A stretch of DNA of 64,000 nt, from positions 1 to 64,000 of the forward strand of contig CALVIB010000004.1 in the NCBI GenBank assembly GCA_944329375.1, in the 5' to 3' direction. Numbering within the stretch: position 1 is the first letter of the stretch; every line of letters starts with the position of its first letter. Below the pieces are notes generated by a model that did no database searches, was not told where the DNA came from, and saw only the letters and a list, made by a program, of their open reading frames with translations. Below, in pieces: positions 38,618 to 47,593 of the stretch. Origin of the DNA: an uncultured Bacilli bacterium. GTDB taxonomy: Bacteria; Bacillota_I; Bacilli_A; RF39; UBA660. The position numbers were made by a program, and so were the translations under genes.

Positions 38618-38839
38618 ATGAAATTACAAGTTAGTGATTTAAAAATGTTTGCTTTATTAGATGTACGTAATAATATGGAATGGTTATCTAAAGTAAAAGA
38701 CTCTGATGATACAAAAAAAGATTCTAAAAAATCTTATAGAATAAAGATGCAAATGATTTTCGACTGTTTAAGTAAGTATACTAATAGTTTGGAAGCTAGA
38801 AAAACCTTAACCAAAAGTTATTTAACACTTTCTAAATAA
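38618..38839 (+). CDS. small soluble protein, unknown
   Basis: A 73-residue helical, Lys/Asp/Ser-rich protein without signal peptide or cysteines other than one. It has a good promoter and AGGAG ribosome binding site, so the gene is real, but the family was not recognised. Its 3' end overlaps the convergent sortase gene by 22 bases. Confidence 0.6.
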   Translation: MKLQVSDLKMFALLDVRNNMEWLSKVKDSDDTKKDSKKSYRIKMQMIFDCLSKYTNSLEARKTLTKSYLTLSK

Positions 38840-39438
38840 GCTATATATATTGTTTGTTTGGTATTATCATTTTTAGTACATGTAATCATAGTTAATGTTT
38901 GTTTGGTTGTATCTCTATAAATGGTAACATTACCATCTTTTGTTTCGTTATAAATATTATCTATTTTATATGTATATAAATGTCCTTTATATTCAATTTT
39001 TGCTATATCTCCAACTTTTAATTGATATAAGTTTTTAAAGTAAGCTATCCTTGTAACACCTGAATGGGCAACTAAAATAACATTGCCCTTTTTTTCATCT
39101 GGATAATTTGATGGAGATAAAAATGTTAAATTTTCGCTTACATTATTATGTTCGTTAGTTTTATCATAAAATCCTTGTTGTAAATTTACTTTATCAATCG
39201 TTAATATTCCTAAATATCCATTAGGATTAGGAGTTGGAACATAAGGTTCTTCTGGCTCTTCTATCTGTTCTATGTTTTGAGGTGTATTATCATGGGATTC
39301 ATTATATAACGATATGTTGATTTTTTGATATGCTCTATCTTTTTTTCCTTTTAAATAATCTGAGGATATTATAAGTAATCCACCAATAATGGCAATAAAG
39401 GCGATAATTACGATTGTTCTATTACTAAGTTTTGACAT
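38818..39438 (-). CDS. sortase-family transpeptidase with Lys in place of Arg
   Basis: A 206-residue membrane-anchored sortase. An N-terminal helix (about 8-28) and a Pro-rich linker precede the sortase beta-barrel. The catalytic His is in LVAHSG, the Cys in TMITCTK. The residue where sortases have their Arg reads TKQTIYI, so a Lys seems to stand in. It links surface proteins to cell wall or pili in known classes. No LPXTG-type substrate lies in the window. The start at 39438 follows AAAGGAGAAG. Confidence 0.85.
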   Translation of the reverse strand: MSKLSNRTIVIIAFIAIIGGLLIISSDYLKGKKDRAYQKINISLYNESHDNTPQNIEQIEEPEEPYVPTPNPNGYLGILTIDKVNLQQGFYDKTNEHNNVSENLTFLSPSNYPDEKKGNVILVAHSGVTRIAYFKNLYQLKVGDIAKIEYKGHLYTYKIDNIYNETKDGNVTIYRDTTKQTLTMITCTKNDNTKQTIYIAYLESVK

Positions 39439-39497
39439 AATATACTTCTCCTTTTTTACTATTAAAGTATAACATAAATGATATATATTGTCTATTT

Positions 39498-39524
39498 TTA
39501 GCACTCTCACTTGACAAGTGCTAA
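39498..39524 (+). promoter_or_regulatory. CIRCE operator (HrcA site) of clpB
   Basis: TTAGCACTC (39498-39506), a 9-base spacer, then AAGTGCTAA (39516-39524). This is the CIRCE inverted repeat with one mismatch in the right arm. It overlaps the -35 box of the clpB promoter, as expected for a repressor site. Confidence 0.93.
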
Positions 39525-41824: not shown

Positions 41825-44509
41825 TTAATCTGATGAAGGAACTTTATTCATAATGTTTTTATGTTCTTCACTACCCAAATATGAATCATCTAGTTTTTTA
41901 GTGTCAAGATTCTTTTTTAACAATAATATTTTTCTAACGGAATTATTTATTGTTTCTTCACTAATTGTTCCATTATTTACAGCATCATAAATAACATTAG
42001 AAGCTTCTATTGCATCAGTTGGTCCCAATAATAAGTCTACTCCTGCATTTATTGCCAATGTATATAAATCTTTTTTAGAATATGCATTTAAAGCATTCAT
42101 ATTTAAACCATCTGTAACAACTAAGCCATTAAATCCCAATTCTTTTTTTAAAAAATTTGTAATTGTGTTTTTAGACAATGAGGTAGGGGTTGTATTATCA
42201 CCTGTAAATGCTGGAACCGCTAAATGTCCTACCATAATTACTTTTGCTCCATTATCTATGGCATTTTTAAATGGAATTATTTCATTTTCTATTAATTCTT
42301 CTTTACTTTTTGTAATAAGTGGTAATGATACATGCGAATCAGCAACTGTGTCACCATGACCAGGAAAATGCTTATATACTGCTATTACTCCCGTTGATTC
42401 CAATCCTTGAGTAAACGGAATAGTCATTTTAGAAACTGTATCGGATGTGGTTCCAAATGAACGTTTGCCAATTACTGTATTATTTGGGTTAGACCATATA
42501 TCAGCAACTGGAGCAAAATCCATATTAAATCCAAAAACTTTTAATTCTTCTCCTATTGCTTTTCCAATATCAAAGGCAAGATTTACATCATTTGTTTTTC
42601 CAACATCATACATATAAGGAATTGTTGTTGCTCCAACATTGTTAGCGGTTAATCTTTGTACCCTTCCACCTTCTTGGTCAACACTCATAATTAACGGAAT
42701 ATTTGAATAAGAGTTTACAAGGTTATTTATGTTATCAACGAATCCTTTTAATTGTTCTCTGGTTCCAATATTATCACCCATTAATATTACTCCACCTGGG
42801 TGCACTGTATTTATAATATTGGAAAAATTATTATTAAGACTAGTCCCATGTCCACTAGCACTAACTATAATCATCTGTCCAATTTTATCTCTTAATGACA
42901 TAGTTTTTAATTGATTTTCTACTTCTTCTGAATCATTATCTGTAGGAGTATCTTCAACTTTTTTTATTTCTAAAGTATATGGATTATTTTTAGAACCGTT
43001 GCCAGAAGATACTATTAAATCACCCTTTACATTTATAACAGGGCGAACAGCAAAATTACCACGTGAACCACAAGTAATCCATCCATTTCCCAATGTATGT
43101 GTACCAATCATACTGCATACTGGATTAACTCTTGATGATAAAACTGGAAATGCAAGTAGTTGAAAACGGTTACCATAATAAATATAACTAGAGTCATTTG
43201 CGTTGTTTTCTTTATAATTTACTCCAGCAAAAATCGCATCATCCATTGTAATTGTAGAAATGGGATATTTTAATACATTAATTCCATACATATCAGAGTT
43301 GCTTGTATAGCAATCATTTTTATTTAAACAATAAAATGTAGGATAAGCATATGGTTGACCAATATGTTTAGTATAATAATTTTCAGTATTTTCTACTAAC
43401 CTAAGCCATGTACCATAATATGTTGTATTAGAACCATAACCAAGTCCCGTGTCTACTCCCCAGTCAGCACCTGCATTATAATGAACAGGATTATTTACAA
43501 TAGAATTATAATCCATTGTACGATAAGTTGTTCTATCGTTAAAAAAATACATATCTGCAATATAATCATCATATTTTCCATCAATATTATTTACATACCA
43601 TTCATCTAATTTCTTTTTCATAATTGAATCTGTGGTATTTGTATGTGTAGCTTCATAATTTCCTTGTGCTGGTGTACCATATATATACCCTATATATGCA
43701 TTATCATTTATAGGGTCTGAAGACATATTTACTTCTCCAATATCACCTTCATATAATAGTCGAACTGAACCAGTTCCATTAATTCTCATTATACGCCAAG
43801 TGGCATTAGCAAATGAAACATAGTTATTATTACTAGCTCCTCTAAAATAATAGGTGTCTCCAAAGTTATCTTTTGCCTTACAAAAACGACTTTCTTTTTC
43901 AATTCCATTTACTAGATATAAATTATTACCATATTCTGATGGGCAATCTTCTGATATGTTGTTGTTGGCTAAAATTATATCAGCAAAGGTATTTTTTACA
44001 AACTTAAAATTTAAGTATGATGACAAAACATTTGAAGAACTAATTGTATTATCCTTATAATGAAAAGTAATTTTAAAAGTTAAAGTTTGTTTTCCAGATA
44101 GAAGTGTACCAACTTCAATTCCTGATAAATCAAATGTTATACCTGAATTACTATAAAAATCATCTTCATAAACGGTTTCTTTAAAAAAGTAATCATTATT
44201 TGAACTATTATAAACTGTAATTTCATACGTTATAGAAGATGTTGGATTATTTGTAGATAAACTTACCTCACTTTGTAACATAGTTTGATAAGCATTTATT
44301 ATTTTTGAATCTGATAAATTAGCATCTATATTACTGACATATTGCACATCAGTAATAAATATATTTGTTTGTTCAATTGCTGAAACATTCCCTTTAATAT
44401 CTAATGAAACTGAATTAACTGAGGCATATCCAATTGTTATACATACGGTAGCTATTAATACAAAGATAGAATAAAAAGAAAATGATGACTTTCTTTTTTT
44501 ATTTTTCAT
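41825..44509 (-). CDS. exoprotein: SipW-type signal, beta domains, C-terminal GH3
   Basis: An 894-residue secreted protein. The N-terminal segment ends GYASVNSVSLDIKGN, as in TasA-like substrates of SipW-type signal peptidases. A beta-sandwich (about 30-170) follows, then a lectin-like WRIMRINGTGSVRLLYEG to VRPVINVKGD domain (about 215-510) common in surface proteins of these bacteria. Residues 534-870 form a glycoside hydrolase family 3 domain of NagZ type, with KHFPGHGDT near 713 and the nucleophile Asp800 in VVTDGLNM. It should cleave beta-N-acetylhexosamine. The joining of a SipW-type signal to a GH3 enzyme is unusual. Confidence 0.8.
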   Translation of the reverse strand: MKNKKRKSSFSFYSIFVLIATVCITIGYASVNSVSLDIKGNVSAIEQTNIFITDVQYVSNIDANLSDSKIINAYQTMLQSEVSLSTNNPTSSITYEITVYNSSNNDYFFKETVYEDDFYSNSGITFDLSGIEVGTLLSGKQTLTFKITFHYKDNTISSSNVLSSYLNFKFVKNTFADIILANNNISEDCPSEYGNNLYLVNGIEKESRFCKAKDNFGDTYYFRGASNNNYVSFANATWRIMRINGTGSVRLLYEGDIGEVNMSSDPINDNAYIGYIYGTPAQGNYEATHTNTTDSIMKKKLDEWYVNNIDGKYDDYIADMYFFNDRTTYRTMDYNSIVNNPVHYNAGADWGVDTGLGYGSNTTYYGTWLRLVENTENYYTKHIGQPYAYPTFYCLNKNDCYTSNSDMYGINVLKYPISTITMDDAIFAGVNYKENNANDSSYIYYGNRFQLLAFPVLSSRVNPVCSMIGTHTLGNGWITCGSRGNFAVRPVINVKGDLIVSSGNGSKNNPYTLEIKKVEDTPTDNDSEEVENQLKTMSLRDKIGQMIIVSASGHGTSLNNNFSNIINTVHPGGVILMGDNIGTREQLKGFVDNINNLVNSYSNIPLIMSVDQEGGRVQRLTANNVGATTIPYMYDVGKTNDVNLAFDIGKAIGEELKVFGFNMDFAPVADIWSNPNNTVIGKRSFGTTSDTVSKMTIPFTQGLESTGVIAVYKHFPGHGDTVADSHVSLPLITKSKEELIENEIIPFKNAIDNGAKVIMVGHLAVPAFTGDNTTPTSLSKNTITNFLKKELGFNGLVVTDGLNMNALNAYSKKDLYTLAINAGVDLLLGPTDAIEASNVIYDAVNNGTISEETINNSVRKILLLKKNLDTKKLDDSYLGSEEHKNIMNKVPSSD

Positions 44510-44607
44510 ATTTTTTTCCTTTCTTTTGTAATTATTTCTCTATCTTAAAATTTCTTATGTATAAATTTTTATTACATTAAATTTAATTTATTATAATACA
44601 TATTTTT

Positions 44608-45678
44608 TTATTTCACATCTCCAACTTTGATTCTAAAAACATACAAAATTTTAGTGTTAGTAGGAATAATGAAATATGCTCCTGTTTTATTATCATTTTC
44701 TTTCATTAAAATTGGTTGTTTAACCGTATCTCTAATTTCTAACATATCCTCAAACGTATTGACTTTTAAAATTTGATATCCCTCAAAATTAAAATCACTA
44801 TTGATTTGTTGAATATATGAACTATAACGATTTAAAATTTTTTTCATTTCTCGTTCATATAGATTTTCTAATGATAATGTTTCAAAATAATACTTAATAA
44901 TATAAATTGTTAAAATAATATCTATAATGCTAAATATTACTCCTAAAATTAGAAAAATATTTCTATTTGTTGTCATTTGACATAACATTATTCCATTATC
45001 ATTAATTAGATTATCACTAATATCAATGCCTACAGTTTTAGTTGTTAAAGGTATTGAAAGGGTTATAACTGATTCTTTATTAGGAGTTTGTTCTAAATCA
45101 TCGCAAGAATTAATAATATCAACATACATATTAATATTAAGAATACTTTCTGTATTGTCTAATCCGTATGTTTGAATAAAGGTTTTAGTTATTTGATTAT
45201 AATGATTATAATCTATTTTAATATCTTCTTGTATATTTATTTTATTTAAATTACCTTTTTTGTTTTTTTCTTTAAGTAATATATCTGATGAATGATATAA
45301 TGGTTTATCCATATCTTTTTCTTTAACAATTGTTTCAGCTTCAATTCTGTAAGAGTAATGGTAATCAACATTTTCTTTATCTAAAGTTAAATTATATTTA
45401 AATTTAGCTGTCAAATAATTTATTAAACTTGCAACATAACTGTTTTTATTAGTAAGAAAATCATTGTTAAAAAATTGATTTTCTTTTAAAAACACTTGAT
45501 AATCAATATCACTATATTCATTATAATGAACATATTTTGTTTTTCCTTCATTAAAATAAATTATCCACATTGCTAAAGATATAATACTTATAAGTATTAT
45601 AACGCAAGTAATATTAAAAATTGTTTTTCTTCTGTCAGCTTGATTTATTAAAATATTTTTTACCTGTTTTTTATTCAT
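44608..45678 (-). CDS. DUF5305-like membrane protein
   Basis: A 356-residue protein with an N-terminal membrane helix (about 20-42) and a second one near 245-267. Between them lies an outer beta domain beginning YSDIDYQVFLKENQFF, and a cytoplasmic region follows the second helix. The layout and strand pattern fit the DUF5305 family, which often neighbours archaeal-type signal peptidases. The start at 45678 follows GGAGG; it is 16 bases after the signal peptidase stop. Its role may be in secretion or assembly of the fibre protein. Confidence 0.65.
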   Translation of the reverse strand: MNKKQVKNILINQADRRKTIFNITCVIILISIISLAMWIIYFNEGKTKYVHYNEYSDIDYQVFLKENQFFNNDFLTNKNSYVASLINYLTAKFKYNLTLDKENVDYHYSYRIEAETIVKEKDMDKPLYHSSDILLKEKNKKGNLNKINIQEDIKIDYNHYNQITKTFIQTYGLDNTESILNINMYVDIINSCDDLEQTPNKESVITLSIPLTTKTVGIDISDNLINDNGIMLCQMTTNRNIFLILGVIFSIIDIILTIYIIKYYFETLSLENLYEREMKKILNRYSSYIQQINSDFNFEGYQILKVNTFEDMLEIRDTVKQPILMKENDNKTGAYFIIPTNTKILYVFRIKVGDVK

Positions 45679-45694
45679 ATTAACCTCCATTTTA

Positions 45695-46843
45695 CTATTC
45701 AAATAATTTTCTAAACCATAGCGTTGGATACCCAACATATTTAATTCTAAGCAATACTACACCATTAATATCTTTTTTTATAATATAACCTTTATCATTA
45801 TTTTTATTTGCATCGCCTTTAGTGTAATAACGTATCTCTCCATTTACTTTTTTTATGTCATATATACGATGAACTGTTTGTACTCCATCTTTTTCAAAAA
45901 TAATAATTTGTCCTTTTTGAATGTTTTGATTAATATATTTTTCAAAAATAACTGCATCTCCCTTATTTATTGTACCAGTCATACTTCTAGAGCCTATAAC
46001 TATAATGCCAAAATAAAATTGACATGAAATTAACATTGTTAGAAATATCATGCTTATACATAAAATTGTATTACTAATTAATGTGTGTTTTTTTTCCTGA
46101 TAAGAATATGTAAAATCTCCCTTCGAGTACATTTTTTCTAATATTATATAAATTATATATGGATAAATAATTCTAATAAATGATTGAAAAAAAATGGGAA
46201 TATTTGATGTTATTGGTATTAAATAAATATATATAGTTGTAATTAACCGAAAGAAGATAACAGCTTTAGAATTATATCTAAAACTTATATAGTGGTAAAG
46301 TAAATTACAAGATAAAGAAGCAAAAAATACAAATCCAAGAGCCATTAAAAAGTTGTCTAAATTATTTAAATTATTTAAATTATAAATAACTGAACAAATA
46401 ACCAATTCCACTAAAACCGAGATAATATATGCTAATATATGTGATAAATTAATTCTTTTTTTACCTATATATATTTCTTGTGACAAAAAATATTTACGAA
46501 TAATTTCTGAAAAAACTATAATTATTGTTAGTGGGATAATTAGTTTTAAAATTGTTTGAATTGAAAAAATTATTTTTGAACGTAAAAAGCCAAAATGAAA
46601 ACCTAATATATAAAATATAGCAATATATATTAATGCAAAAATAATCATTAAAATTACAACTTGATGTTGATAAATAGAATTAGAATTTCTTTTTTTCATT
46701 ATAAAATGAAGAATTATTGCATAAATTGGTAAAATGATTGAAAGTCCAATTCTCGCCAAAATATTAGGTACAAAGAGGGCAAGGAAGATGATTACAAGTA
46801 ATAAAATTTCATACCCAATTATTTCCCATTTGTAATTTTTCAT
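45695..46843 (-). CDS. SipW-like ER-type signal peptidase fused to polytopic domain
   Basis: A 382-residue membrane protein. The first 270 residues contain about seven to eight hydrophobic segments; the last 100 form an S26 signal peptidase domain. The catalytic Ser is S287 in SRSMTGTI. His325 in TVHRIYDI replaces the Lys of bacterial type, making it ER/SipW type. The Asp pair sits in YTKGDANKNND (344-350). Such enzymes process TasA-like fibres, one of which is encoded directly upstream. The large N-terminal membrane domain is not part of usual SipW (about 190 residues). Confidence 0.82.
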   Translation of the reverse strand: MKNYKWEIIGYEILLLVIIFLALFVPNILARIGLSIILPIYAIILHFIMKKRNSNSIYQHQVVILMIIFALIYIAIFYILGFHFGFLRSKIIFSIQTILKLIIPLTIIIVFSEIIRKYFLSQEIYIGKKRINLSHILAYIISVLVELVICSVIYNLNNLNNLDNFLMALGFVFFASLSCNLLYHYISFRYNSKAVIFFRLITTIYIYLIPITSNIPIFFQSFIRIIYPYIIYIILEKMYSKGDFTYSYQEKKHTLISNTILCISMIFLTMLISCQFYFGIIVIGSRSMTGTINKGDAVIFEKYINQNIQKGQIIIFEKDGVQTVHRIYDIKKVNGEIRYYTKGDANKNNDKGYIIKKDINGVVLLRIKYVGYPTLWFRKLFE

Positions 46844-46876
46844 AATATTCCTTCCTTACCTACTTTCTAACTATTT

Positions 46877-47377
46877 TTATTGTTGAACTGGATTAGCATC
46901 TAAATCAATTTGAATATTAGCTGTTGAATCATCAGCTTCGATTGGTGTTTTAATCAATTTTACTGTAACTGTAACTTTCGCAGTTCCATTAGCATCAACA
47001 GTTGTTGGAGACTCATCAACGCTAGTAGTGACTTCAAAGAATTCTTCTTTGTCATTTGTAATAGTTTTCTTTGTTATGTTTGCATTTACATCTGTTTCTT
47101 CATTTTTTATTGTGTATGTTGCGGTTACTATCTCATTTAATGTTAAATCACTAACACTAATTGTTGCATCTAGACTATTATCTGTAGAATTAGCCACAAC
47201 TTTTTCTTCATCAGATACTTCTGTGACACCATTAAATGATACGTTTAAATTTTCACTTTTAACACTAGCAGTTCCATCAATATTTAAACCTACTGTACTA
47301 ACTGCAGCATAACCAATACCCAAAACTAACACAAAAACTAACAATCCTACCACATAAAATTTCTTTTTGTTTTTCAC
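46877..47377 (-). CDS. TasA/CalY-like fibre protein
   Basis: A 166-residue exported protein. The signal segment ends VLGIGYAAVSTVGLNIDG, the form processed by SipW-type peptidases. The mature part is an all-beta, Thr/Val-rich domain with no Cys. Its setting with a dedicated signal peptidase matches the tasA/calY arrangement, where the product forms matrix fibres. It starts with GTG at 47377 after AAGGAGG. It is first in the operon leading to the signal peptidase. Confidence 0.72.
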   Translation of the reverse strand: MKNKKKFYVVGLLVFVLVLGIGYAAVSTVGLNIDGTASVKSENLNVSFNGVTEVSDEEKVVANSTDNSLDATISVSDLTLNEIVTATYTIKNEETDVNANITKKTITNDKEEFFEVTTSVDESPTTVDANGTAKVTVTVKLIKTPIEADDSTANIQIDLDANPVQQ

Positions 47378-47593
47378 AAGTTCACCTCCTTATTATAAAT
47401 AGAATAAACAGTTTTCTATGATAAATAAAGCAAACACCTAGGCATCAAAAATAATGCATATTCTATAATAATAGTAAAAAAAAAAAAAAAAAAAAAAAAC
47501 AAGTAATATTTTTGAAAATCACTTATTTTGTCGGAATTTTTTACTCTATTTTTTTCACATGTTTTTATTATATATAAATTAAATTTATTTTCT
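47378..47593. other. intergenic region with A/T homopolymer
   Basis: 216 bases upstream of the fibre operon. It contains 24 A in a row on the plus strand (47476-47499), hence 24 T on the transcribed minus strand, preceded by a hairpin. A clear promoter for the fibre gene was not identified; TATAAT occurs just before its ribosome binding site. Confidence 0.5.
47476..47524 (-). terminator. terminator with a 24-base T tract
   Basis: On the minus strand a 7-bp stem AAGTGAT/ATTACTT (one G-U pair) is followed by 24 T. It terminates the SPFH-Tim44 operon. The tract is far longer than needed for termination. Confidence 0.65.

Follow-up and report, generated by a model that had tools for sequence, protein, structure and literature searches.

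A putative fibre locus with a dedicated signal peptidase and an enzyme-bearing exoprotein

A 64,000-nucleotide stretch of DNA (positions 1 to 64,000 of contig CALVIB010000004.1, assembly GCA_944329375.1; hereafter the window) from an uncultured Bacilli bacterium of the RF39/UBA660 lineage carries a co-directional set of four minus-strand genes (41825-47377), encoding a small fibre subunit, a polytopic signal peptidase, a DUF5305 protein and a large exoprotein ending in a NagZ-type GH3 domain. These genes are likely to specify a donor-strand fibre system resembling those of TasA and archaeal bundling pili (ABP), in which a peptidase platform would be dedicated to the fibre and the tip exchangeable, with the GH3 domain as its presumed cargo in this genome. 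Gene content, gene order, catalytic motifs, exoprotein-fibre homology and exchangeable C-termini can be read from the sequence, and assembly, processing and enzyme display are predicted from them. A reading made earlier from the sequence alone (the sequence-only reading) had inferred a matrix or surface-fibre system, possibly with a hexosaminidase as cargo; a fibre system of the SipW type, perhaps bearing that enzyme, is still the best-supported reading.

The four open reading frames (ORFs) were found on the strand and at the positions where the sequence-only reading had placed them; they are separated by gaps of 33, 13 and 98 bp and have good ribosome-binding sites. The source genome (1.19 Mb, 81% complete) contains a second locus on contig 11, where the same peptidase and DUF5305 pair stands behind four fibre paralogues, without the large exoprotein.

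Recurrence of the cassette in related genomes

The polytopic peptidase was detected (E below 1e-15) in 121 of the 291 genomes of the family, covering 80 of 150 genera, and a peptidase match was present in 36 of the 59 relatives that were searched, almost all of which belong to the same genus. Beyond the family, full-length matches were few, with two genomes in the class sample. The collection scan was seeded with a narrower peptidase alignment; in the scan of named genomes, the carriers were mostly metagenome-assembled genomes of rumen and animal-gut Bacilli. Among 76 non-redundant polytopic peptidase copies, the DUF5305 gene adjoined the peptidase gene in 73 and a fibre gene lay directly upstream in 65. 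The cassette of the window, sought in other genomes, thus recurs in tens of genera, and its occurrence here is therefore not a product of chance. The carriers are gut bacteria related to mycoplasmas, in which the cassette appears to build a surface protein fibre.

The polytopic signal peptidase

The peptidase (382 aa, 45695-46843, minus strand) scored 73.7 bits against TIGR02228 (cut-off 51.85) over residues 256-375, which places it in the ER-type (SEC11-type, SipW) class. The position of this S26 catalytic domain (45719-46078, minus strand) leaves the N-terminal ~245 residues as the membrane part. The catalytic residues S287, H325, D344 and D350 were unchanged across 47 aligned peptidases, and the equivalog for Bacillus subtilis SipW (NF046067) was scored at 37.4 bits, under its cut-off of 190. 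The sequence-only reading was correct in describing a peptidase attached to membrane helices, as the S26 domain does stand behind a part with eight transmembrane (TM) segments, but the fusion is no peculiarity of the window operon, being the rule in the family. A literature search on SipW-like peptidases with a fused domain found nothing relevant.

The predicted structure (pLDDT 88, pTM 0.81) consists of eight TM helices, a ninth helix and then the catalytic domain, and the catalytic part matched SEC11C and SEC11A structures (Z 12.7 and 11.7). The membrane part (residues 3-242, 46118-46837, minus strand) matched SpdC (Z 11.7, 221 residues, 4.4 A) and Rce1 (Z 10.3, 219 residues), both of CPBP fold, at Z values (about 11, and under about 13) that can mislead for helical bundles, possibly a common arrangement. 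SpdC is a CAAX-protease homologue that acts as a scaffold for SagB (PMC10581084). Across the 47 sequences the only invariant residues of the membrane domain were E113, R116 and P228, and no histidine was invariant or nearly so; of the catalytic set of the CPBP/ABI family (PF02517; EExxxR, FxxxH, HxxxN/D), which is thus incomplete, only a residual ExxR motif remains. As the conserved histidine is missing and the motif set is incomplete, the domain is likely a degenerate CPBP and probably a non-catalytic scaffold; an active CPBP protease was rejected as the principal interpretation on account of the incomplete catalytic set. Pfam scans of the 47 single sequences gave no membrane-part family in common among the families listed.

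In locus L041 (1262-3792; G001:C62), two unfused SipW-like signal peptidases lie in one gene run, close behind a second cassette with a polytopic peptidase.

The fibre subunit and the DUF5305 protein

The small fibre subunit (166 aa, GTG start, 46877-47377, minus strand) carries a SipW-type signal ending in GYAA, followed by an LxIxG mature N-terminus. Neither this protein nor any other of its genome reached the curated cut-offs for TasA/CalY (PF12389, NF046066). In a profile-profile comparison that took in the signal and the PGD..VxNxG motif, PF12389 members matched the fibre profile at 95% with the signal and 38% without it (reversed controls, 0.1-0.2%). The best PDB matches of the fibre profile were archaeal AbpX entries (E 3e-4 and 7e-3), and sister fibres gave weak matches to TasA, TIGR04088 and PF12389. 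On these three lines of evidence the window protein is best described as a putative member of the TasA/CalY superfamily: the TasA-like label of the sequence-only reading holds in the profile-profile and AbpX comparisons, but is not matched by a family assignment of its own in Pfam or NCBIfam. Past the cleavage site, L31 and I33 are conserved in the fibre alignment, as expected of a donor strand, and by analogy with TasA and archaeal filaments (PMC9674648, PMC9715654) the subunit may polymerise in the same manner. The GYA-type signal is common to the fibre (LGIGYAAVSTVGLNIDG) and the GH3 protein (TIGYASVNSVSLDIKG), as had been noticed from the sequence, and the N-terminus of the exoprotein is in addition homologous to the fibres.

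The third protein (357 aa, 44608-45681, minus strand), with two apparent TM segments, is the conserved partner of the peptidase. It scored 36 bits against PF17231 (gathering cut-off 29), so that its earlier description as DUF5305-like was right, and 35 of 36 aligned members also matched this family. The family was absent from 14 control genomes (0/14), a profile search detected no relative in the PDB, and no papers on DUF5305 were found in the library searched.

The exoprotein and its GH3 domain

The exoprotein (894 aa, 41825-44509, minus strand) has three parts. Over its first ~170 residues it shows homology to the fibre proteins encoded at the paralogous locus on contig 11, so that the exoprotein and the fibre have more than a signal in common. 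This fibre-subunit-like domain (residues 26-175, 43985-44434, minus strand) has a confidently predicted fold at residues 48-175; in the model of residues 1-520, which is of low confidence outside that range, the strand directly after the signal (mature N-terminal residues 34-45) is unpaired. The middle domain (residues 174-519, 42953-43990, minus strand) had as its top structural match the N-terminal domain of the Thomasclavelia ramosa IgA peptidase (9qa6, Z 8.9, 186 residues; the next match was 6.8). As that domain is C-type-lectin-like (PMC12237041) and belongs to DUF6273 (PMC12402451), the middle domain is by its modelled fold C-type-lectin-like and DUF6273-related.

The C-terminal part (residues 539-862, 41924-42895, minus strand) matched PF00933 (GH3) at 269.5 bits, with both the Asp-His dyad motif KHFPGHGDTVADSH and the nucleophile motif VVTDGL intact. 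It is a full NagZ-type domain, in agreement with the sequence-only reading of an 894-residue exoprotein ending in such a domain, and it scored 182.9 bits against the NagZ equivalog NF003740, below the cut-off of 207. For its substrate, the claim is limited to the hexosaminidase family. The nearest standalone relatives of this GH3 domain (50-59% identity) carry lipoprotein or anchor signals or are membrane proteins; the window protein may therefore be an anchored hexosaminidase that was re-targeted to the fibre system.

A variable fourth slot

A SipW-type signal was encoded by 37 of the 58 co-directional genes that follow DUF5305 and by 49 of the 415 genes lying elsewhere in these loci (p 5e-17); the gap between the DUF5305 and exoprotein genes had a median of 5.5 bp. 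Behind a fibre-like N-terminus, the proteins in this slot end in FnIII plus Hint, FnIII, beta-repeats, leucine-rich repeats (LRR)/DUF285, carbohydrate-binding module CBM26, ricin or laminin-G lectin, or GH3 domains. GH3 is therefore one of many alternative cargos of the slot and not its defining member.

GH3 exoproteins were found in the window genome and in genomes G103, G148, G316 and G218; the gene immediately follows DUF5305 in G316 and lies outside the cassette in G218. The idea that this protein is unique to the window genome was accordingly rejected. G103, which belongs to another genus, encodes a full-length orthologue (72% identical) directly downstream of a DUF5305 remnant, and in G316 a GH3 exoprotein of a different lineage directly follows the fibre, S26 and DUF5305 genes. 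Through these two genomes the association of the GH3 protein with the other genes, on which the sequence-only reading had staked its claim of a system, is borne out. By their GH3 motifs, KHFPGHGDTxxDSH or KHFPGYGNNxDTH, the exoproteins belong to two lineages, and GH3 was recruited from both into fibre-signal exoproteins, at least twice in all. A 917-aa GH3 protein of G210 was also checked and is without a SipW-type signal.

In locus L116 (3955-4746; G103:C24), a single ORF combines the N-terminus of a serine recombinase with the C-terminal half of a DUF5305 protein in the same frame, apparently through truncation by a recombinase or through a join made in assembly; the polytopic peptidase was not found in the G103 genome. 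Locus L118 (3652-7959) encodes a 1435-aa protein in which a SipW-type signal is combined with two or more DUF6273-like domains and GH3; another SipW-type protein follows, and no peptidase cassette is near. Fourth-slot exoproteins ending in an intein/hedgehog-like Hint domain (starting CFxxGTKI) occur in L040 (12762-15188), L046 (10495-12882) and G001:C62. These Hint domains apparently lack the terminal His-Asn, and self-cleavage or covalent attachment of the fibre tip is possible.

Upstream homopolymer and genomic surroundings

A 24-base homopolymer (T on the coding strand; 47476-47499, minus strand) lies 99 bp upstream of the fibre start and is the sole homopolymer of at least 10 bases in the window. 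Five of seven long tracts lay in the 150-bp zones preceding SipW-type genes, which together comprise 2.7% of bases (p 2.7e-7; 1.59 Mb of non-redundant sequence), the length thresholds having been set after the window tract was seen and the loci chosen around SipW-type genes. Comparable tracts precede SipW-type genes in L040, L133, L244 and L276 (14, 16 and 19 A/T and 10 G). This enrichment suggests that the fibres are phase-variable, and the tract in the window is a candidate phase-variation tract.

Outside the cassette, a sortase-domain protein is encoded at 38818-39510, ~2.3 kb past the GH3 gene, with a convergent ClpB-like AAA gene between them. Five transpeptidase-domain matches in this organism indicate that it probably has a cell wall.

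Proposed mechanism and alternative explanations

In the mechanism that we favour, the fibre subunit and the exoprotein would be exported by Sec with their GYA-type signals, and the dedicated SEC11-type peptidase would cut both. The CPBP-fold membrane domain, its catalytic His lost, may serve as a non-catalytic platform that holds the precursors and/or DUF5305, as SpdC does for SagB, with DUF5305 as a candidate membrane assembly or anchoring partner. Once the signal is trimmed, the LxIxG strand at the mature N-terminus would become free, and donor-strand polymerisation of the kind known from TasA and archaeal bundling pili could follow. The exoprotein would be added via its fibre domain, probably at the tip or as a rare subunit, and may present its lectin-like domain and hexosaminidase to host or microbial glycans. 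The upstream homopolymer probably switches the operon on and off.

Besides the caution given above for helical bundles, several points weigh against this mechanism. Fibre, cleavage and enzyme activity are predictions from genes and models; the fibre protein of the window matched no Pfam or NCBIfam family and stayed below every family cut-off; and the fibre domain of the exoprotein matched generic Ig-like folds in Foldseek, with a single filament protein (7pnb) among the weak matches. No large exoprotein was recognised alongside 30 of the 76 cassettes, and the genome also encodes two ordinary signal peptidases I that could process the fibre and exoprotein signals. HMM-HMM support for CPBP depended on the alignment (80% with 13 sequences, 37% with 26), and in 25 half-size subsets the forward median was 3% as against 0.4-0.6% for reversed sequences, with overlapping ranges. 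Since this sequence support is unstable, the assignment of a CPBP-like fold leans on the structural model and is called moderate.

Three other explanations were weighed. The subunits may form a shed biofilm matrix like that of tapA-sipW-tasA, and not cell-bound tipped fibres, an explanation that shares its peptidase type and fibre superfamily with the TasA system and could draw on the four fibre paralogues at the core locus; we regard it as rather unlikely, given that none of the four cassette proteins matched TapA in Pfam or NCBIfam and that large partners carrying lectin, CBM, LRR and Hint domains are rather a mark of adhesive appendages. The GH3 exoprotein could instead be a glycosidase secreted in its own right, with signal type and operon in common with the fibre but acting outside it, and its fibre domain would then be a module for wall retention or secretion. 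The standalone anchored lipoproteins or membrane proteins closest to its GH3 domain would fit this, as would the similar protein of G218 that is not beside a peptidase, but the homology of its N-terminal domain to fibre subunits, the enrichment of the slot for fibre-signal proteins, and at least two origins of GH3 in such proteins, with two further cases beside the peptidase cassette, make it improbable. Finally, the 8-TM domain might be an active CPBP/Rce1-like intramembrane protease making a second cut, for example in clearing the cleaved signal peptide. Despite the Rce1 fold match and the invariance of E113 and R116, the want of a near-invariant His, the incomplete motif set and the description of the best structural match, SpdC, as a scaffold (PMC10581084) render this very improbable.

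Comparison with known systems and implications

The cassette resembles the Bacillus tapA-sipW-tasA and sipW-tasA-calY operons in its dedicated ER-type peptidase, adjoining fibre genes, distant TasA/CalY profile match and operon layout, but differs from them in its 8-TM CPBP-like fusion, DUF5305 partner, large variable-cargo exoprotein, lack of TapA and scores under the SipW and TasA NCBIfam cut-offs. Gram-positive pili of the SipA type are sortase-linked. Their loci likewise use a signal peptidase homologue for pilus building (4n31; Z 11.6 to the catalytic domain), whereas the cassette has a polytopic peptidase of the ER type and contains no sortase. Archaeal bundling pili (AbpA/AbpX) are comparable in that AbpX is the top PDB sequence match of the fibre profile and the N-terminal strand is unpaired in the model; the present system differs in being bacterial and only distantly similar in sequence, and its polymerisation is inferred from genes and a model. 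The SagB-SpdC peptidoglycan release complex of Staphylococcus aureus, in which a CPBP-fold scaffold, the best match of the membrane domain, presents a glycosidase (PMC10581084), is a further parallel, but here the CPBP-like domain is fused to a signal peptidase, and a tie to the GH3 enzyme is suggested by gene neighbourhood. The modelled fold of exoprotein residues 174-519 resembles that of the DUF6273 domain of the T. ramosa IgA peptidase, attached here to GH3 and a fibre domain and not to an M64 peptidase.

Taken together, these observations link DUF5305 to a definite role alongside a fibre-specific signal peptidase, reveal that peptidases of the ER type are joined to a CPBP-like scaffold in at least 80 genera, and bear on the unsettled matter of how fibres of the TasA/ABP type assemble and acquire their tips. 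More tentatively, the cassette might encode a modular machine with which gut Bacilli make phase-variable donor-strand fibres, composed of the fibre subunit, the signal peptidase on its CPBP-fold platform, DUF5305 as partner in assembly and an interchangeable tip protein, with tips ranging from adhesins to GH3 enzymes and autoprocessing Hint domains; if so, such a machine would correspond, in cells with a single membrane, to chaperone-usher pili, with the signal peptidase itself as the assembly platform. For small-genome gut bacteria, it would offer a route, still to be tested, to display and switch lectins and glycosidases on fibres.

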